Below are positions 7,311 through 19,260 of a DNA stretch of 64,000 nt, piece after piece (position 1 is the stretch's first letter; the number at the start of each line of letters is the position of its first letter). The notes below the pieces were generated by a model that saw only the letters and a list, made by a program, of their open reading frames with translations, did not search any database and was not told the DNA's origin. The translations under genes and the position numbers were made by a program. The stretch comes from Steinernema hermaphroditum (lineage: Eukaryota > Nematoda > Chromadorea > Rhabditida > Steinernematidae), in the NCBI GenBank assembly GCA_030435675.1, contig CM059624.1, positions 12,672,769-12,736,768 on the forward strand, given 5' to 3'.

Positions 7311-10300
7311 ATGAAACCGCCTGTTTTATCACAAGACGCGATATAATGAGAGGAACAATGTTCTTGGACTTTGTTGTGAAGGAAGGAAGTCGAGTTCGAA
7401 CAAATTTGCACAACATCAAAAATAATTCTTAGCTAGTCAATCCATTATTCAGTTTGCCCCAATTGATCGCATGACCGAACTGACCTTCGCCCCAGATTGC
7501 GCTTTTGGAGTGAATAATAAACAACGTTCGGTTTCCGACAAGAGCGAAAACAAAGTTTGTCGATGTGTTTGTTTAGTTGGGGCACAGGAATTCATTGAAA
7601 GTACAGACGACGCACCAACAACGCAATCTTTTGATTGGTTTAGATGACGTTCGATAGAACAAAGCGCCTAAAAAGGGGCAAGAAGACGATTAATAGAAAA
7701 ACGGTGGAATTGAAAGACCCAGAAGCCAACAAGATGTCCGATGAACCATGAATTTAACCGTCTGAGAAGTCACCCTGAAGGTCGCCAACCCACTACCGGC
7801 GAAGACGCAACTTCCGGATAGGAACCCAAAGTCGTAAAGAGGTGTGGAAATACTATAGGAAATAACACAAGGTAAAAGCAACGAAACGAAAGGGGTAACG
7901 TGAGAACACACAGAATACTCAAAGGGTCAGGTAGTCCGTTCAAAAATGTACATAAAATAGAGCGCGTCGTATATTTACTAATGAAAAGATTGAGATTGAA
8001 AAGGCATCACTACGGAGACACTACGGAAACACTTGAATGTTGATAAAAGATCCCGATGCTGCTTTGAATAAAAAATTCTAAGTAGATTTATCATTTGACC
8101 TTTCTGATCACTGACAACATAAACATAATAACCGCTTTACGTTTATTTACTGAATCTTTTGGGAATATGAAGTCAATGAGTTGTTTCGGACCAAGAGTGT
8201 ACCCATCAATTATCACAGAAAATATCCGTTAAAGCATGTACTTGTCAGTAGCAAACGCAGCAATGCGAAAAGGTCGTAATTTTTCAAATCAGAGCGTAAA
8301 CGCATGGAATGATACGATAAAATGGCTCAAACAAATGCAAATTCACTGTTGCTGAGTTTAGCAGCACACCAGCTGTGATTTTAGAATACAAAATAGTCCA
8401 TTTTTCTAATTAAAAACGGAGAAGATTATAGAAGCATCCAAGCGATTAAGGATAAACCGATGTGGGATGAAAATCCAGTTGCAAATTAGATTCCGAGTAG
8501 GCTACTGGTACCTTGCCTTGTGGGCCTTCAGCACTAAAAAGGCGCGAAATCTACCGCCACACTGCTCATCCGAACTGCCCAAAACGGGCTAAAATCTCGT
8601 CTCGTACTCACATGTCTCTGCAACCTGATAGGAGGGGGAGCACTGTGCTGTGACACGTGAGTTTACGTGCTTTAAACAACATTGAGAATCTGAGTCCGGA
8701 TTGCGGCAAAAAAAAACAAGAGCAGAAACATTGGAACATTACAATTGCCGGCAAAAATATCACATAAATTTGGCTTCAAAATACAATAACTTCCATGTAG
8801 ATCAAAAATGAAACCACACCAACAGCCCCAAAAATATGCGCCGACACAAAAACTATGTGATGGCTGGCGCCTCTGCAAAATGAGGACATAATTAGCTTCA
8901 TAGATTTGTACTTTGTGCGCAGCTCTTTCGCTCGCTTTGCGGAAAACGCTTCCTCTTCTAGCGAAAACCGAATAAATTACTAGACAATTATGGATGGAAT
9001 GCCTTCCGCTTGAGTATAGCATAGGCTCTAGTACATAAGGGTATGAGAGGATTTCACATTTTACTGCTGATTTGGCTTCTTAGTTAAAGTCAGTTTGTTG
9101 TTTTTTGGCTGAAGTCGTATGCGGAATGTAATGGGAGGTTTAAAAAATAACTCTTCTGATTGGGTATGAAACCATTATAATTCGACCAAGCCCCAGAATG
9201 TTGGTCTTGTGTTTAAAAATTAGCTGTATTAATGGTAGGTCTCGCGGCCTATGACCGCCTTCACAGTCCAGAATTGAAAATTCAAAGAAAATTCAGTCTT
9301 ATTTTATATCCAATAAGGTTGGATGACTCTTGACATAATATCTGTTCACAACATCCGAATGAAAGTGAGAAATTCTTCATCAGTTCGCGGATGCTTGCCC
9401 TATTCAAAGCCTTATCTCATCTCCGATCCATGCCTCGTTCTTTCTCCGGTTAATACCTTATCCTATGCCCGGTCTATATCATAACCTATGGCCGACCCAT
9501 GGCTCATCCCATCACGCGATTCAGTTAAAGTCCGTTTGTTATTTTCTGGCTGAAGCCGTATGCGGAATGTATTGGGAGGTTTCAAAAATAACTCTTCTGA
9601 TCGGGTATGAAACCATTATAATTAGACCAAGCGCCTTCTATCCAAAAATCAGCTGTATTCAGATAATGCCATCAAATGCAAGGCATGTGAAATAAAGATT
9701 ACCAATAGAGACACGTTATATTAAAGGCCGTACGATTAAGAAACAAAAGAATAAGGACAAAAATGATTTACTTGGGAAAGGCACGTGCGCAAAAATCAAC
9801 ATTGCAACGATTACAGAATAAATTCCAAAGATGCTTCCGATTTCCCTAAATCAAGATGTTGTACTAAAGTGTCTAAACAGTGAACCTAAAAATAACTCTT
9901 TAGATCAAATATGAAACAATTATTAATCAACGAAGCCCCAGCATTCGAACAAGTACAGTCTTCTACTCAAAAATTAACTGTATTCAGATAATACCATAAA
10001 ATAGAAGACATGAAATGAATATCAGCAACAAAGACACGCTCTTTTCAAGGTCGTACTTGCAAAAGGAACAGATGCGCAAAAATGAACAGAACAGCAACGG
10101 CTTTCGTGCAATTGATGCCTAGCGATCGCGAAAGATCGTTAGTAACAGGTAAATACAATGTGAGAGGCGGTCGGCTTAAGTTTGAGACAAAACAGCATCA
10201 ATTTTGCCATCACTCAGATGTAGGATCTCCTCTCCATATCACACTTAAGCGATAATTTTGATAGGGTCAGCAACTTAGCGCACACAGATTCCATAAGTTC

Positions 10301-11254
10301 ATAAGTTCTGATTCATGCGGACGAGAAAATGGCCAACTCGAGAAATATACTAATCAAGACCAAAAATTCCATGAAAACACTAAAGATACTAGAAGAAAGA
10401 AAAGCATTTGCGATCTTCCTTCGTTTAAGGACAGCTTGCAAAATTCTGAGTCGTCTCTGTTTTGGTCAAGTTTGTGTAAAAGAATCTATGCAAGCATCTC
10501 ACTCCATAACTAGGTCCACATCAGGTCCACAATCAGATAGTCCAACTGTTGGATATGGCTAGATCGAGAGAGTCACATCGCAAATTTACAAAAATCCGGA
10601 ATGCTTAGCATCGGATTCTCGCCTTCCCTTGTAATATCTGAAAATCGACAACAGAAAAATAAGGACAACTCTGTCTGGTCGCAAAAATACTCGCTCATCG
10701 CTGTTTTTAGTTTTGGAACAAGTTTATGTAAAACATTCGTCTCGTTAGGCATCAGACAGTCGAACTTTCCTAGTGAATGCTGTTGGAGATGACCAAATCG
10801 ATAAACATGTACATTATCGCAAAGATCCGGAAAATTGCAGAAGGGAACAACGTCTTGTACGGAAAGGAATAATTCTGGTGGTTATTCACTGAAGAAGGGG
10901 CTCGTTCATTTAATTGCGCACGGGCATAGCCCAGGGCGAATCGTAGGCGAGAGATGTAATTAAGTCAGGCAGCGTTCCACAAAACGCAAAATTGGATTAT
11001 TTTGTGGAGTGTTCACTAAATATGGAAAAATGAGACATGCAGGAGTTCACTGGGCTTATAAAAGAGGAACTGTGTTTTGACTCAGTGGGCATGTTTTACT
11101 CGACTAAAAATGGGAATTTCACTATTTTGACAAAGCTGTAAAGACGAATGAAGAACAGTGAATATGGACCTGCGAATTTATAAATCAAAGGCCTCACCAA
11201 GAGGACAGAGCGCTGTGTGGACAAAAATGGAACCACATCAATATGAAAGATGAA
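7311..11254. other. intergenic, with several local tandem duplications
   Basis: No gene is recognised. About 7722-7830 is another fragment of family B (caagatgtccgatg and gaaggtcgccaacc match 44.6 kb, same strand). Three related blocks occur at about 9070-9230, 9519-9720 and 9890-10020 (shared string aaaataactcttctgat). Two diverged blocks lie at about 10430-10600 and 10690-10840. The open frames are short. Confidence 0.5.
9070..10030 (+). repeat. three diverged direct repeats of 130-200 bp
   Basis: The units share gcggaatgtaatgggaggtt-like sequence (units 1 and 2), aaaataactcttctgat, a run close to tatgaaaccattataatt and tcagctgtattcagataat. They are spaced roughly 370-450 bp apart, and the third is the most diverged. 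I infer sequential local duplication. Confidence 0.65.
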
Positions 11255-11900
11255 GTGCAAAAATACTGAACAAAAAGACTTGTAGAGAACGTCAGCTCGC
11301 AGTGTCACCTTTCGTCACCGTTGTGACTTCCCCCGGGTTCCCGTTGGTTTGTTGTTTTTTTCCAAAAATATCTTCTATGTTCGAGTACCCGAAGCCGCAT
11401 TTCAGCATCTCCTGTTAAATGTGCACAAAAAGGAATCTATCGAACCTGCGTCGTATGCAATACTCACTCAAAAGAAACCAATATATGAATTTGCATATGT
11501 TACGGAAGCAGAGACATAGGGAGATTGTGAGGTATGGTTTTATTGAGTCACAAGAAGATCCAGGATATGATGGATGAATATGCAAAAATACTGAACAAAA
11601 AGGCTTATAGAGAACGTCCACTCGCAGAGTTAGACTTCGTCACCGTCATGGTAAGAGTTGTGACCTCCTCCGGGTTGTTCCCGTGGACAGCAAAGTTACA
11701 TGGTTAATTTGACAAAAATCTCTCCTTAATTCAAGTACCCGTATTTGAACATCTCCCGTTTAATGTGCCCAAAACGGATTCTATTGAACCTCATCATATG
11801 CAATAGTTAGTCAAAAGTAAAGCGATATATGGCATTTGTATATTTCCAGCAGAAGTACAGGGAGAGTGTGAGGCATGGTTTTATTGAATCACAAGAAGAT
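11255..11900 (-). repeat. tandem duplication of the SKP1-like gene's 3' flank
   Basis: Two units of about 330 bp (about 11255-11560 and 11585-11895) share caaaaatactgaacaaaaa, cgtcaccg, a run like attctattgaacctcatcat and the closing tatggttttattgagtcaca. Each includes TTTATT, an AATAAA signal on the minus strand. The unit nearer the gene lies directly at the 3' end of the SKP1-like gene, so its 3' UTR and poly(A) region appear to have been duplicated downstream. Confidence 0.7.
11880..11885 (-). terminator. poly(A) signal AATAAA of the SKP1-like gene
   Basis: TTTATT on the plus strand reads AATAAA on the minus strand, about 20 bases past the stop codon at 11905. Confidence 0.6.
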
Positions 11901-11904
11901 GGAG

Positions 11905-12312
11905 TCATTGGAAGAACGTGCGACGAATTTCCTCGGTCGTCTTGTAGCGGACGTAGGTGTAGTTGATGTACTTGCAGACGTGTTTCAAGGCTTTGTCGAT
12001 GGCCAAGTAGTTGACCGCGTTGGCGAACTGCACGAGGTCTCCGAACTCCATCGTGAAGAAGGCTAATTCTTCTTTCGGGAGATCGAGGTAACTCTGCACG
12101 GCCTTCTTTTCGTGGAACTTCTCGCAGTACTCTACGATCTTGGTCGCCGTTCTCGAATCGACCTCGAGCAGTTTGAGGGTTCGGTTCTCATTCGAGTCGC
12201 CCATCTGTTCGTAGAAGTTCAAAGTTGCCTTTAGCACCTCGGACATTTTGAGTGCTTCAGGGGAGATCTTGAGGATCTGTTTATCCGAGGTTTCGAGGAG
12301 ATAAAAGGTCAT
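11905..12312 (-). CDS. SKP1-like (SKR) ubiquitin-ligase adaptor, C-terminally short
   Basis: The gene encodes 135 residues in one exon. It has the SKP1 layout: an N-terminal BTB/POZ-like fold (KQILKISPEALKMSEVLKAT), a variable middle, then NAVNYLAIDKALKHVCKYI and the signature KTTEEIRRTF. SKP1 proteins link cullin-1 to F-box substrate receptors in SCF ubiquitin ligases. Family members are usually about 160-180 residues and end in a helix closing with a WCEEK-type tail that helps hold the F-box. Here the stop falls just after RRTFFQ, so this tail is absent. Cullin binding may remain, but F-box binding is doubtful. Nematodes have expanded SKR families, and this is probably a divergent, possibly intron-lost member. 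The ATG at 12312 starts the homology directly, and an acceptor-like ttacag lies just upstream. Confidence 0.85.
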   Translation of the reverse strand: MTFYLLETSDKQILKISPEALKMSEVLKATLNFYEQMGDSNENRTLKLLEVDSRTATKIVEYCEKFHEKKAVQSYLDLPKEELAFFTMEFGDLVQFANAVNYLAIDKALKHVCKYINYTYVRYKTTEEIRRTFFQ

Positions 12313-13024
12313 TGTTTGTATTAGTTACTGTAATCATAGTAGGCCAGTATATTCCTTAAATATGTGTGTATGTGGCGTGGCTTAAGTCCAAAAGCATCGC
12401 TTTTTTGGATAGTGCCTTAGCATTGGTTTTAACCCCGGGCTCGTTAACTATGGGGTAAAAAAGTGACCTCCGCATCTTAGTGGTCAGGGCTGCGCGAGGT
12501 CGCAATAAGAGCTTAATCCTAATTAAATTGAACAGCAAAACGCGCGAATAGATCAATGACGACAGCTGATTTAACCACAAAGCAGCCTTGGACTAGGCTT
12601 AGCCTCGCCTTGAATGGAAATCCCTCGAGACAATTCAGGATAATGCAATGAATAGCAGATTGAGGCCATATCGCGCTTTTTCAAAGGACCTCCAAGGGGG
12701 CGAATAATGATTTGTCGATCTGTCATCGCATGGAAATATGGCAACGGAGCCCGCGTTTGTGATAAATGGGATGGATTTTGCAGAAGTTAGGAAAAGAACT
12801 TTGGCTGTTTTCTGCAACAACATAACCTCTTCAAACTGTGACCCTGGATTACTGTCGTTCAAGGTACGGTAGAAGGATTGCAGGACACGTCAGATCTGCA
12901 GAAATGTGTCGTCATCAAGTCTAGAATCGCTCAGACATCCAAACGTCTACAATGCAGCTTATAAGAGACCCTCCCACCAATCGTTCCCATTTCATTTTCA
13001 AGTACCGGCTGCAACCGGTTAGTC
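12313..13024. other. intergenic between divergent genes; contains a segment duplicated at 15.46 kb
   Basis: About 12553-12640 (gacgacagctgatttaacca) recurs at about 15463-15545. No gene is recognised. The minus-strand frames at 12356-12580 and 12635-12862 look like chance frames. The promoters of the SKP1-like gene and the tetraspanin-like gene should lie here. Confidence 0.45.
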
Positions 13025-13751
13025 ATGATCATCTCTCGGAACGTCGCCGCTGCTCTCGTAGCTGTGACCTTCCACTTCACCTGCTCCAGCGCCGCTCCTG
13101 CTCGGAAATTAGAAGATGGTAGGCTCGCCTCGCTCAACTTCCACTTCATCTCCACCGCTTCAGATGTTCTTACTTACGTCTTCTACGACCACACGCAGAC
13201 GGATATATTCGAAGCCACCGTGAAGGGTGCCTTCCGCCGCTACTCTGTTGTAAAACAGGCCATCGCCAAGATCGAGCAGAACCACATCGACTATTGTGGT
13301 TTTCTGGTAAAACTCCAGGAGGATTGGGTCGTGCAATGTATGGCGCACTTGCCTCTAGCGTCTACTTAACAATAAGATTTTTTAGGGTGGGACGGCGACG
13401 ATCAATCCGACTTCCAGAAACGATTGCAGAACGGCGATTGTGTGGACAACGAAAAGAGTAAGCAATTGGCACTGTACATTCTACATCGTGATGTTTACAG
13501 GAGGGCTGTACTCATACACGGGACCTAAACCGAAACCGGTGCTGAAATTCGGCAAGAAGGACATTGCCGCCATCGATGTTCTCTACCTCCTCATCCCTGT
13601 GCTTGGCTTCGTCTTGATGATCGTTTGCCTCGTTTTCATCGCGTGCGTCGTTCTCATTGCTATTAACAGCCGCAACGAACCTGATCTCGATAAGGTGCGA
13701 CCAGCTGAGACCGACGATGAGAACCAGAATACGCAGCAGTTCAGCGATTAA
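13025..13751 (+). CDS. secreted/one-pass membrane protein with a tetraspanin-like outer loop
   Basis: The model uses exons 13025-13118, 13164-13337, 13386-13457 and 13501-13751 (introns 45, 48 and 43 bp; phases agree), giving 196 residues. The 45-bp first intron is in frame and could be retained. The N-terminus is a signal peptide (ISRNVAAALVAVTFHFTCSS). Next comes GAFRRYSVVKQAIAKIEQNH followed by a CG pair, DW and GDC, the spacing seen in the large extracellular loop of tetraspanins (CCG, DW, C). One strong membrane segment (LLIPVLGFVLMIVCLVFIAC) and an acidic 28-residue tail follow, like the fourth helix and tail of a tetraspanin. The first three helices are absent, so I infer a tetraspanin-derived type I protein. 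The usual CC is YC here. A broken copy lies at 15.46-15.9 kb. Confidence 0.6.
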
Positions 13752-13959
13752 TGGATGCACAAGCCTTTTTCTAATCACACAAGTTATATATTTTTTTTGC
13801 GCATTGGCTATTAGCAAATAAATTACAAGTAGAGCGGCTTGGGCGTGGCGCGGGGCGCCAAGCCAATTTGGGTTTGGGCTTTATATAGGCCACACTGACC
13901 CTTACGACAAGCTCATTTTTATTGTCCTTCATTTACGGTTTAGAGCAACATTGAAAGTA

Positions 13960-14188
13960 ATGGGAACTGTAGTTTTGTCATTTCCATCAACCGCCGTCGG
14001 TCTACTGACGGACATCCACAGCGAGGTAGAGCTTTTCAGCCTTCGAAGTGCGACCAAGGTGAAATCTATTATCGCGAATAAGCAGGTACACTGCACAAGC
14101 ATTACGTCTTGATTGCTTCATTTAGTTCGTTCTCCTCGCGACGCCTTTCGAAACAAATTTGAATTTTGTCCCTACACGTTTGCCTTGA
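13960..14188 (+). CDS. small protein, 62 residues, unrecognised
   Basis: Exon 13960-14085 starts with ATG (MGTVVLSFPSTAVGLLTDIH...) and ends in CAG before a GT donor. A 40-bp intron ending in TTTAG leads to 14126-14188. The frame stays open across the junction. An acceptor-like ggtttag lies about 15 bases upstream of the ATG (possible spliced-leader site) and a TATATA motif lies about 85 bases upstream. The product has no signal peptide or membrane helix, and I do not recognise it. It sits 450 bp upstream of the superoxide dismutase gene on the same strand. Confidence 0.45.
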
Positions 14189-14623
14189 TTACAGTTTTTG
14201 TTTGCTCTTATTCCGCGGTCGGCATGCGAGCGAGCGGAAGGCCTTGTCCCCGATTGTTTCATAATTTTCTCGATTTCCGACTGTCCACTGCTTTGTATCG
14301 TCCGACTACAGCTGCCGTTGTGAAATCTAAGCACCTCCCTCTTGTTGTTTGTAGTCTCTGAAGTTCGGAGCGCCGTTATTTATCCGTTTCGTGATGTTGA
14401 ATTATATTGCGCAGTTGTTTCATTCTCTTTTCAAGGTAAATTTCCGTTGTCCATTTGCCGGGTTGCACTTAAGCGTGGAAGCTGTTGCGTGCTTTTATAT
14501 AACGTTCGTGTGTGAGTGTGATGTATGCGACATTTACGACGTTGTCCTGATGAATAATCTGCTCGGCATATTATAGGACACAGATATCATTGTTTATCAT
14601 AAGTTCATTTCATACGGCATTTT

Positions 14624-14625
14624 AG
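14624..14625 (+). promoter_or_regulatory. acceptor-like site (candidate trans-splice site) ahead of SOD
   Basis: The sequence cggcattttag ends 15 bases before the start codon of the SOD gene, with no coding exon obvious upstream. This arrangement is typical of a spliced-leader addition site in nematodes. It could instead be the acceptor of a 5' UTR intron. Confidence 0.4.
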
Positions 14626-14640
14626 ACTGAAGCAGCAAAT

Positions 14641-15208
14641 ATGAACAAACGCGCTGTCGCTGTTCTCCGTGGTGATGCTGGTGTCACTGGAACTGTCTAT
14701 TTCACTCAGGTAATAGATCAAATTTTGCAAATGTAGCGGAAATATATATTCCAGGAGAAGGAAGGACAGCCCACCACCATCAAGGGAGAAATCAAGGGCT
14801 TGACCCCTGGCCTGCACGGGTTCCATGTTCATCAATATGGCGATTCCACGAATGGATGCATTTCTGCTGGACCGCACTTCAACCCCTTCGGAAAGACTCA
14901 TGCTGGCCCGAAGGACGACAACCGTCATGTCGGTGATCTCGGAAATGTGGAGGCCAACGCTGATGGCATCGCAAACTTTGAACTGGTTGACAGTCCTGTG
15001 CAGATTCATGGAGTTAACTCGGTTGTTGGCCGTTCGCTTGTTGTTCATGCCGGCCAGGATGATTTGGGTATGATTGTGTGTTGCAACTCTGATTTAACTT
15101 CTTCATTTAGGCCGCGGAGAAGGAGACAAGAAGGAAGAAAGTCTGAAGACGGGCAATGCCGGAGCTCGTGTAGCCTGCGGTGTCATCGCTTTTGCGTCTC
15201 CCATTTAG
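14641..15208 (+). CDS. sod-1: Cu/Zn superoxide dismutase
   Basis: Exons 14641-14709, 14755-15067 and 15111-15208 (introns 45 and 43 bp) encode 159 residues. The enzyme converts superoxide to oxygen and hydrogen peroxide. All family landmarks are present: GFHVHQYGD (two copper ligands), [14 protein letters not shown] and [10 protein letters not shown] (bridging His and zinc ligands), [11 protein letters not shown] (last copper His), and [15 protein letters not shown] with the active-site Arg. There is no signal peptide, so this is the cytosolic SOD1 type, and its length is normal for that class. No canonical AATAAA is obvious just downstream. The symbol follows the nematode name for this class; orthology to a particular paralogue was not tested. 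Confidence 0.96.
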
Positions 15209-15462
15209 AAAGATATAGCTTTCAAGTGATTTTATGATGGCACGTGTATTTGGTCTGTTGTATTATTTAACCTAGGATGTTTTGTACTTGTAGTAAAGTT
15301 TTTGGGCACTCGTGCGATATTCGTGTTGTGCCAGATGCTTGTGGGGTGAGTCGGCTTGTGTACTGTGCGGTGGCACGTAATGATGGCGTCTTCGAAGGGA
15401 TGCATTTGGACTGTCCGGTGTACAAATCTTCCTAACTTAAAGCAAGAACGTGTGTTTTCGAT

Positions 15463-15895
15463 CAGTGACGACAGCTAATTTAACCGCAAAGCAGTCCAGG
15501 ACTAGGCTGAGCCGCGCCTTGAATGGAAATCCTTCGAAACAATTCACTGCACACGATTGGAACCGCGAGGGTTAATCCGACTACCGAAAACGATTGTTGA
15601 AGGGTATTGAAGATATGGACAACGAAAAGAGTAAGCAATTGGTGCTGTAGGTTGAAAATATTTACTATCAGTCCCCATAGAACTAGTTGTTATCCACAGA
15701 GATGAAGTGTGCGGAATAAGAAGGTGTATCACTAGTTGTGAACAGCATGATGTTTACAGGAGGGCTGTACTCTAGATCTCGAGACTCGATGAAATTTCGA
15801 GCGAGTAACACCTCTGGCTGTACTCATACACAGGACCCAAACCGAAACCGGCACTGAAATTCGGCAAGAATCAAATTGCCGCCAAAGATAGCCAA
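15463..15895 (+). pseudogene. broken copy of the tetraspanin-like gene at 13.0 kb
   Basis: The block joins a copy of 12553-12640 (5' flank) to copies of exon 3 (acaacgaaaagagtaagcaa) and part of exon 4 (gatgtttacaggagggctgt, then gaccgaaaccg-like sequence). Exons 1 and 2 are missing. The intron between exons 3 and 4 is lengthened by unrelated sequence, and about 45 bases are inserted within the exon 4 copy, breaking the frame. The copy keeps intron sequence, so it arose by DNA duplication rather than retroposition. It lies on the far side of the SOD gene. Confidence 0.85.
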
Positions 15896-16093
15896 AAGAA
15901 AGCCATATCTTTTTTACAAATGTATACGCGGCTGCGCGCGTCTACGCGTTAACACCGGTCTCGTCTCGGCGAAACGTTTAATTTGGTCTCTGTAGTCTCG
16001 GTTTGCACGGTCAGCACATTTCCAAAGAAGTATAAAGAGAGAACAGGTATTACCGTAAGGTGGAGAAGGCAAGAACAAATTAATCAGGAATCA

Positions 16094-16099
16094 TTTATT
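16094..16099 (-). terminator. poly(A) signal AATAAA of the MSP gene
   Basis: TTTATT on the plus strand lies about 25 bases beyond the MSP stop codon at 16124. Confidence 0.7.
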
Positions 16100-16123
16100 G
16101 GAGACAATAACACAAAAGCTCGT

Positions 16124-16522
16124 TTAAGGGTTGTACTCGATGGGGAGGTTCTTGTTGCGGACCATACCATCTCCCTGGAACCATTCGCGGTGGAACTGCT
16201 TGGCGGCACCGTCGGGAGTGTTCGTCCACTCAATGGTGATCCGGTCGTTGTTGGTGTCTTCCCGTCCGTAGACGAAGCAGTCGCAAGACACGGCCACCAG
16301 CACGTTCTCCTTGGGGTCAAGCACTCCACAGGCAGGATCCACTCCGAGGCGCTTGATGTTGGTGGTCTTGATGGCCCATCCGATGCGGCGTTCTCCAGCG
16401 TTGGTGATCCTGATGTGGTAGGTATTGTCATCGTACGGCGCGTTGAACACGATCTTCGTGCCGGGCTGGGTGTTGATTTCTCCAGGGGAAACGGATTGAG
16501 CCACTGCTGCTGCCTGCCGCAT
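16124..16522 (-). CDS. msp: major sperm protein (MSP), if translated independently
   Basis: From the ATG at 16522 the frame gives 132 residues, close to the usual 127. It matches the MSP immunoglobulin-like fold over its whole length, starting at [19 protein letters not shown]. MSPs polymerise to drive amoeboid crawling of nematode sperm and are also released as an oocyte-maturation signal. A TATA-like ctataag lies about 80 bases upstream of this ATG on the minus strand, which could support an independent promoter. The frame is nevertheless open far upstream (see the overlapping Myb entry). The family assignment is certain; only the start is in doubt. Confidence 0.9.
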
Positions 16523-17191
16523 AAGCGAAGTGACCACCTCGTGCTTTCCACACTCGGATCCGCTTGGTGCTGAACACCATCCCTGAAGGGAGCTTCTTAT
16601 AGAGCGATCAAACAGAGAACAACGAACATTTTCGTCCTCAGGCGGCGGGTCGGCATTCCTCTGGGTCTCTTCGTTCTCCTCTTCCGACACATTCACATCT
16701 CCATCATCCGCGGACAGCATTTCCGCCTCAAGAAGAGGCAACTTCTTGCGATCGACCAGCACATTACACTTGAACTTCCTCTCGATGCTGAAATAAATCA
16801 AATGTTCCAAAGCACATTTAAGTTCATCCCTACTAAGATCGCTCATGCCTCTGCAACTGTCGACCACTGCGACGAACAAGGAAGAGAAGATCTTGGAGCT
16901 GCAAATCGGCGCGGTGAATATTGTCGTGCAGATGGCGTCGATAACTGAACAGTTTTCGGGGATACAATGGAGCGAAACGGCGAAAACTCACTGCGACTGC
17001 AAGCTCGAGTACGTGCGCCCACATCCGGGATTATCGCGGACGTAGTCCTTCCATATGGAGATTCCCATTGGCGTCAACGCGTTATCGCTACCTGCGCGCA
17101 CCTTCAACAGAAGGTATTTCCACATCCGGCGGTCGTCTTCTTCAGTATAAGCTTGTCGGTTCATCATTCGGTTCTGAAGCGATGAATTCAT
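16124..17191 (-). CDS. Rap1-type Myb/SANT domain gene reading in frame into a major sperm protein
   Basis: Minus-strand exons 17191-16992, 16944-16834 and 16787-16124 (introns 47 and 46 bp, all phases consistent) give an uninterrupted 324-residue frame. Residues about 14-75 ([20 protein letters not shown] ... [14 protein letters not shown]) look like a Myb/SANT DNA-binding domain of the Rap1/TEBP kind. The middle is acidic ([16 protein letters not shown]). Residues 193-324 are a nearly canonical [20 protein letters not shown] ... [20 protein letters not shown] ... [19 protein letters not shown] is the cytoskeletal and signalling protein of nematode sperm and is normally an intronless 127-residue gene. 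This is either a true fusion or two genes: MSP starting at 16522, with the Myb gene ending by other splicing. A weak 48-bp intron (GTTCGT...TTCAG, about 16.6 kb) would also keep the frame. Confidence 0.75.
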
Positions 17192-17301
17192 AACAAATAT
17201 TCCGGCATATTTTGAACAATTGGGCACACGAGAATAAGCAGGACAGCCACAAACAAAAAGATCTATGTTTAGACATAAACGCATTGTTTAGCCACGCGAC
17301 A

Positions 17302-17385
17302 TCACATCATTTTGCCGCCCTTGGAAATATCGTCGCGAGACGCACCCATCGTACCCATCGGAGCACCCATCGTTGACGTCTCCAT
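17302..17385 (-). CDS. possible 27-residue peptide or terminal exon, unrecognised
   Basis: A short frame (METSTMGAPMGTMGASRDDI then SKGGKMM) with a repeated MG spacing ends at 17302. A good acceptor (cttgtgtttcag) lies about 80 bases upstream on the same strand, but I could not join it in frame to a convincing upstream exon. It lies between two better-supported minus-strand genes. It may be noise. Confidence 0.2.
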   Translation of the reverse strand: METSTMGAPMGTMGASRDDISKGGKMM

Positions 17386-17527
17386 AGACCTCTCTTGCAG
17401 CTCCTCTCCTCACTTAGGAGTCTTTTTTTATGCTTCCGTGCCAGATCTGACAGTGCCACACCGACTGAAACACAAGAACTTCCAAATTGTCCAAAGTTCA
17501 GCATCACAATAAATGAAGTGGACATGA

Positions 17528-17742
17528 TTAGTATGCCGCAGTGATCACTCGTTCATCAAATCTTGGCACAACTGTCTGACCAACACGTCGTAAACGCGCA
17601 TAAAAAACATACCAGATGGCAAGCGTTGGGTAGTGGCCTGACGTCTAGACTGACTAGACGCCCTTTTGTGTCTACGATTGTTCATATAAAGGATGCGATT
17701 GTTGATAAAGATGAACCCCACTAGACCGGTCGTTCCCCACAT
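17528..17742 (-). CDS. small single-pass membrane protein, 57 residues
   Basis: Exons 17742-17613 and 17571-17528 are joined by a 41-bp intron (GTATGT...GACAG, phase 1). The product begins MWGTTGLVGFIFINNRILYM, a short membrane segment, then a very basic stretch (NNRRHKRASSQSRRQ) and ends RLPSVVPRFDERVITAAY. I do not recognise the family. It starts 84 bases downstream of the Aly/REF stop codon on the same strand, the spacing typical of genes inside nematode operons. An unspliced alternative of 65 codons is also open. Confidence 0.45.
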
Positions 17743-17826
17743 CTCAACAGCAAGAAACCGTGAACAGATATGACAAAGATACAAAGAGATAAAAAGTATT
17801 TTAAGCAGGACAATAACAAAATATAG

Positions 17827-18626
17827 TCACGTGGTCATAACAATATCAGTGTTCTGCTCCATGTATTCGTCCAGCTCGCGATCCAGTTCTTCCTTGGTCT
17901 TCTGTTGCTTCTTCTCTGAGTCAGGCTTCTTTTCCTGCTTTCGGCCGTTCTTCTTCCCACGCTTCTTTACGACTGCCCCCGACGAACATTTCGCAATTTG
18001 CTGGACCTGCTTCTTCAAGGCGGTGAGCTGTCGTTGAATGGAGGGAGCAACTCGAACAGGAGCACGGTCATCGACGATAACCATCTTGAGATCACGACCT
18101 GTAATAGAACCGTCAGCAATGGGTAGTGTGAACAGAGAACGAAGTACCATCAAGGGCGATGCCTCTGAAGTCGTTGACCATTCTCTTCGCGTCACCATGA
18201 TGAAGAACAGCGTCTCCAGTGTGCAGCGACTTTCCGGTTTCGTCGAAGTGAACGTTCACCTTCGAAGGCTTGTACGGGGCGAACAGTTCCTATAACACTT
18301 GCCATTACGACAAGCCGTAATTATCCAAGAAGCGTGCCTGCAGGTCGATAGTTTTGACGGTATACGACAAGTTGCTGATGTTCACTTTGACGAAGCGATT
18401 GTCGACACGGCGGGTGACGTTGGCGCAACCGCCGCGATTCGGCTTCTGCTTCTGAACCAGTTTCAAAATAAGTTAATGATTGAATATGACTAACGTTGGT
18501 GAACTTGGCTTGTCCTTCACCTGGCTGATACTTCGGTCCGCGATTGAACTTCGCAGTACCGCTACCCGCCTTGTTCTTCTTCTTGTTTTCAGCGATGAGC
18601 TGGTCCAGAGATTTGTCAACGTTCAT
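17827..18626 (-). CDS. Aly/REF mRNA export adaptor (ALYREF/THO4 family)
   Basis: Exons 18626-18495, 18451-18338, 18289-18148 and 18098-17827 give 219 residues. The N-terminus ([18 protein letters not shown]) is the UAP56-binding motif. An RRM follows ([14 protein letters not shown] as RNP2, [37 protein letters not shown]), and the C-terminus [15 protein letters not shown] is the matching helix that binds UAP56. The protein couples splicing and transcription to nuclear mRNA export within TREX. Intron 2 (18290-18337) has a GC-AG boundary; only that junction yields the conserved DLQ-ELF sequence. The arginine-glycine boxes of vertebrate ALYREF are reduced. An acceptor-like attcatttcag ends about 19 bases before the ATG, a candidate trans-splice site. 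Confidence 0.92.
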
Positions 18627-18644
18627 TTTGGTTACGCTTGCCGT

Positions 18645-18646
18645 TC
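18645..18646 (-). promoter_or_regulatory. acceptor-like site ahead of the Aly/REF gene
   Basis: The minus strand reads tattcatttcag ending about 19 bases upstream of the start codon. I interpret it as a spliced-leader or 5' UTR acceptor. Confidence 0.45.
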
Positions 18647-18659
18647 TGAAATGAATAAA

Positions 18660-19260
18660 AATATGGGTAAAAAAGAAGAAAAGCACAGCACGATCACGAT
18701 CACGTCAAAACGGGATGAACACGGCATCAGAGAGAAAGCTGAAAGGCAAATATATTACTGCTGCACATTGTCACATCAACTTCTGAAGTAATGCAAAAGT
18801 CGGACGTCGGAACGACCGCAAGAGGAGCATTCTGCAAGCTGAATGACGCAGACTGTCTCCACACTGCAAACGCAATGTCTGCGGGGTTCTTGGCGCTATC
18901 GTATAAACGTTCAAAAGAATCCTTGGAATGTTGTATGATAAAAGACTGTGGTCTCAATGGGTACAATATTTCAAAAAGAGGAGATCATCAGGCCTCCGAG
19001 AGAAACCCGCAACCCAGGTGGGACAAAACGATGTACTGTATGTCTGTATACCTGGTCTCGACAAGAGTTCACCCCACTCATATTTCAAAGCGGTATGTCA
19101 AATTTTAGCAGGCTCTGTCGGCATCGTCTTAGAAAATATCCTGGACCATAATATTATGACATAACCAGGATCCTAGTGGCCCTACGATGCCGTAATGCGG
19201 CCAGAATTTATCCAGAAATCTTCGTTAACTTAACTAGCAAATCCTTTATACAAACTAGGC
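18660..19260. other. intergenic stretch with antiparallel open frames
   Basis: Frames of about 80-105 codons exist on both strands (18727-18966 minus, 18791-19108 plus). The plus frame is Cys-rich (GAFCKLNDADCLHTANAMSA) but has no signal peptide. I cannot choose between the strands, and neither resembles a known family. An unannotated exon is possible. Confidence 0.35.

Follow-up and report, generated by a model that had tools for sequence, protein, structure and literature searches.

What kind of gene results where a telomere-type Myb module runs without a stop codon into the nematode sperm protein MSP? Such a reading frame is found in the insect-infecting nematode Steinernema hermaphroditum, at 17191-16124 on the minus strand of the window, i.e. 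the whole 64,000-nucleotide stretch of DNA analysed here (C4:12672769-12736768, within the 16.9-Mb contig C4 of the 90.6-Mb genome). The original prediction described a chain of 324 residues at this place and considered either a fusion or two genes overlapping in frame. The chain is present, and its Myb-to-MSP reading is continuous once two introns are spliced out. Since the ATG of MSP and its TATA/TGAGAY promoter are absent, the locus is most likely, as judged from sequence, a chimeric gene rather than a normal MSP gene or a pair of overlapping genes. A true chimeric gene is the best explanation of the locus and is considered probable. Its parts were graded separately: the chimera is very likely to be real in the genome, production of the fused protein is rather probable, and a selected function is possible but somewhat doubtful.

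Gene model and Myb half

The preferred model of the chimera comprises four exons on the minus strand (17167-16992, 16944-16834, 16787-16628 and 16582-16124) and encodes 301 residues with a mass of 34.4 kDa. Exon 1 (17167-16992) contains an ATGATG start and the first half of a TEBP/Rap1-type Myb domain. The start was previously placed at the ATG at 17191, which sits upstream of an acceptor-like TTCAG ending at 17174; this acceptor is used by the deposited model QR680_006555, where the exon starts with NRMMNRQ. As the paralogue proteins P0042 and P0043 start at the methionine equivalent to 17167, the ATGATG at this position is the likely start codon. Exon 2 (16944-16834) encodes the second half of the Myb domain with helix 3 (HYRRHLH), the match to 8u8l extending over query residues 4-108. 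Exon 3 (16787-16628) encodes the end of the Myb-containing domain and an acidic linker, and it aligns with the paralogous gene L049. Intron 3 (16627-16583, donor GTTCGT) had formerly been counted as part of the last exon, so that the chain has about 301 rather than 324 residues. The position of this intron is common to L049, which has a GTACGT donor and a stop inside the intron, and it is also removed in QR680_006555. Being 45 nt long and stop-free, the intron leaves the frame into MSP unchanged whether it is spliced out or retained. Exon 4 begins with a Myb-gene part (16582-16519), ending in GKHEVVTSL by comparison with L049 and the deposited protein P0045, and carries the MSP part at 16504-16124 (126 codons and the stop). 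The entire 301-residue chain is contained in QR680_006555 (P0001, 502 residues, named hypothetical protein) as residues 202-502; this model derives from the same assembly and is not independent proof of the chimera.

The Myb part resembles TEBP-2 in both sequence and fold, which supports the reading of a telomere-type Myb module running stop-free into MSP, the join lying within one exon. The TEBP-type Myb-containing domain is present with a single Myb unit in the gene, not three. Scores against Pfam Myb_Rap1 (PF08914) were 20.9 and 22.8 bits, below the curated cut-off of 27.1, while the paralogue L050 scored above it (30.7). Pfam SPK (PF04435) gave no match in the gene at E up to 10, and the genome profile search was blank for the controls too.

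Three further TEBP/Rap1-type Myb genes were observed: L049 (C1:4583394), L050 (C2:10656778) and L051 (C1:17501077). TEBP-type Myb domains are present at at least four loci in this genome, which belongs to a clade IV nematode. According to published searches, TEBP orthologues were confined to Caenorhabditis (accessible part of PMC8113555); the genes of S. hermaphroditum are here compared as domain homologues. L049 (QR680_016147, with the UniRef name SPK domain-containing) shares exons 1-4, three intron positions and the HEVVTSL motif with the chimera, at 45% amino-acid identity. Unlike the chimera, it has no MSP and, according to its model, continues with a tail of its own, about 165 residues long. 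The Myb half alone as protein query gave 36 candidates, none of them at E up to 0.1, in a search via shared 5-residue words that misses distant relatives. An alignment of the four Myb paralogues, used as query in the same kind of search, retrieved four proteins from three genes, all from S. hermaphroditum.

The MSP half and its join to the Myb gene

The MSP part matched Pfam Motile_Sperm (PF00635) with 76.2 bits (cut-off 25.9) and 1grw with an E value of 1.4e-69. Searching the genome for MSP yielded 25 places: the window copy, 19 intact genes of 127 codons, one diverged copy (L021) and four that are broken, partial or distant. The view of MSP genes as intronless 127-codon units holds for these 19 among the 24 other genome matches; it does not extend to all nematodes, the exon number differing between species (accessible part of PMC5765362). 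The part had also been called a nearly canonical MSP. An MSP domain aligning over 126 of 127 codons is indeed present; compared with the 19 intact genes, the ATG has become GTG (16504-16502), a codon has been lost and the residue is altered at 11 further positions. The loss of the ATG may go back to a 3-nt deletion in GCAGCAGCAATGG, which would yield GCAGCAGTGG as found here, or to a GCA deletion together with a substitution, with the same outcome. The closest copy (C4:12737736-12738236, about 48 kb away) shows 93% identity over 502 columns, including the 3' untranslated region and flank. The whole copied segment (16518-16020, minus strand) thus consists of about 14 nt of 5' untranslated region, the coding sequence, the 3' untranslated region with AATAAA (16099-16094) and flank past the poly(A) signal.

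Three other places are broken or partial MSP copies: L022 (C5:7308610), L023 (C2:610063) and L024 (C2:610205), with in-frame stops in L022 and L024. The overlapping places L023 and L024 probably represent a single broken copy.

A TATA at -41 to -45 and TGAGAY are found in all 19 intact MSP genes, and the window copy has neither in place. Using a promoter score built from the 16 distinct MSP promoters, these same promoters scored 8.8 to 27, while the window MSP scored -27, near background (mean -21, standard deviation 9). The highest score across 17200-16500 was 1.1. Upstream of the GTG at 16504, the frame is open into the Myb exon.

The homology to MSP starts 14 nt before this GTG. At the site equivalent to the join, L049 reads ...GRHEVVTSLVHRNRN..., and the Myb and MSP homologies meet within about ten bases of one exon. 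GRHEVVTSL occurs at the same place in L049 and in P0045, each followed by its own tail. The join is flanked by HEVVTSL from Myb and CAGGCAGCAGCAG from MSP, and the homology of each half to its own family reaches as far as this point; a chance open frame is therefore ruled out. The paralogue tail is absent from the chimera; when a remnant was sought downstream by tblastn of the L049 protein against window positions 10000-19000, only chance-level matches (E 1.9 and 3.4) were obtained beyond the Myb gene.

The parental homologies meet in one coding exon, the donor is still present and the copy exceeds the transcript (with its 3' end deduced from AATAAA), as expected of a chimera formed by duplication at the DNA level. 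An origin as retrocopy was ruled out, the homology extending about 74 nt beyond AATAAA without a poly(A) tract. The meeting of the two homologies inside one exon indicates a DNA-level duplication by which an MSP segment beginning shortly before the ATG position came to lie in exon 4 of a Myb gene of the TEBP type. Since the Myb gene is without its own tail, and the MSP copy without promoter and ATG, the Myb gene would most likely supply transcription and start codon, and MSP presumably the 3' end. MSP forms dimers. The predicted product would be a 34-kDa, presumably nuclear protein with one Myb DNA-binding unit, the acidic linker and the MSP domain as a putative dimerising tail. The more specific proposal that MSP was acquired by a germline Myb protein binding telomeres or chromatin, as a dimerising tail in place of that protein's own, and now acts on DNA in the nucleus, is unlikely.

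Constraint, decay and rival explanations

Several observations weigh against the chimeric-gene reading. On the MSP branch, 13 replacement changes stand against 7 silent ones at most (neutral P 0.14-0.31), which is compatible with drift, and the ratio of replacement to silent change per site (dN/dS) of the window MSP versus its sister copy is 0.45, the other 18 intact MSP copies lying at 0-0.07. Neither of two constraint measures fell below 0.05, with P 0.16 for 'residue seen elsewhere' and P 0.06 for BLOSUM. The intron-3 donor GTTCGT is judged weak. The 324-residue query retrieved 41 proteins, among which blastp with the Myb part found only P0001, the window's own model, the next having an E value of 0.63 or worse. 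Constraint of the MSP type has been relaxed in the window copy, and a weaker constraint on the chimera is possible.

The near-neutral MSP half and the weak donor would suit a dead or dying chimera, in which the join is real, the transcript or protein has no function and an open frame has survived by chance and through recent origin. This is rather unlikely, in view of the 903 coding nt without stop or frameshift, the kept splice sites and the sole indel in the MSP coding sequence being 3 nt long; in the 3' flank, 10 of 101 sites are unlike those of the sister copy. In simulated neutral decay, the frame stayed intact in a fraction of 0 to 0.05 of the runs over nine settings, in a test that uses assumed indel rates and is biased by the choice of the locus for being open. 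The changes also fall on variable sites, the eleven changed codons tested having an entropy of 1.09 versus a null of 0.72 (P 0.012), as measured on a variability profile of 39 proteins, six of the 45 (P0001, P0042-P0045 and one with a low score) being left out.

The MSP part could also be made alone, as a short sperm protein of about 132 residues from an internal in-frame ATG (16522-16520), with the Myb gene overlapping. This explanation is in line with a TATAAG located 97 nt before the GTG and with a CTTCAG acceptor that ends at 16583, but the first ATG after that acceptor is out of frame and, with a score of -27, the promoter elements common to all 19 intact genes are not in place. A separate MSP protein is considered very improbable, and the earlier alternative of two genes overlapping in frame is disfavoured, given an MSP part without ATG and promoter behind a Myb exon that is stop-free. 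Near-identical MSP repeats can confuse an assembly, and an MSP read or contig might have been joined to the Myb gene by error. Against this, the window copy, inside a 16.9-Mb contig, is unlike every other copy found (93% at best) and carries unique changes, which makes an assembly error hardly credible.

Duplication is a known route to gene fusion, and the pairing of MSP with Myb is new as far as searched: no report of an MSP-Myb fusion was found in the literature covered, most subscription journals being outside the search. If the chimera is kept, a promoterless MSP copy serving as tail of a DNA-binding gene would represent a rare and datable reuse of a highly conserved protein. Telomere-binding proteins evolve fast (accessible part of PMC7819708), and a tail swap of the Myb-MSP kind would offer a concrete, testable route for their evolution. 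Forward and reverse genetic tools exist for S. hermaphroditum (accessible part of PMC10858997).

Related loci and comparison with known systems

A second MSP-tailed gene model was observed in L021 (QR680_017804, 207 residues; C1:11483288-11483653), where MSP homology runs from codon 6 on, the first five codons and the ATG being missing. Like the chimera, L021 shows MSP homology without ATG and, in the deposited model, other coding sequence ahead of it. Unlike the chimera, its basic N-terminal part matches no Pfam family over cut-off, and its MSP is more diverged. The MSP half of L021 has kept an open frame through 0.53 silent changes per site, with a dN/dS of 0.24 versus the intact MSP L002, so that constraint on it is probable. 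Seven codons ahead of the MSP homology there is an in-frame ATG, and a single deposited model is the basis for the fusion in this gene, so L021 may be a short stand-alone protein instead. If the MSP-tail reading of the chimera were true, this second model would suggest the reuse of MSP as a module.

Upstream of the chimera, a separate ALY/REF (FoP)-like gene was delimited from ATG to stop at 18626-17827 on the minus strand by P0001 and Pfam FoP_duplication. QR680_006555 fuses this gene in front of the Myb-MSP chain, a join that is probably an over-merge, because Myb DNA was not found beside two further ALY/REF-like copies (C4:12606225 and C4:12739303; 40 of 97 candidates scored). A span of about 134 kb on C4 holds three copies of the ALY/REF-like segment (17820-18970 in the window). 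The MSP gene nearest in sequence to the window MSP has the copy at C4:12739303 about 1.1 kb downstream; ALY/REF-like and MSP segments are therefore neighbours a second time, with their order changed. Upstream of the Myb gene lies a dispersed repeat (17642-17750, about 109 bases), which was found at at least about 40 further genome places with 80-96% identity, again with 40 of 97 candidates scored. Rfam gave no match in 15500-18800 at E up to 0.1, the dispersed repeat included.

With 83.5-97.7% identity across nematodes, MSPs rank with the most highly conserved of known proteins (accessible part of PMC5765362). Compared with nematode MSP genes, the window copy lacks the ATG and the MSP promoter, is one codon short, shows faster protein change and is no stand-alone 127-codon unit. 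The C. elegans proteins TEBP-1/DTN-1 and TEBP-2/DTN-2 bind telomeric double-stranded DNA, contain three Myb units and bind POT-1 through their C-terminal region (accessible parts of PMC8113555 and PMC7819708). In comparison with TEBP-1 and TEBP-2, the chimera has one Myb unit, and MSP occupies the place of the POT-1-binding C-terminal region.
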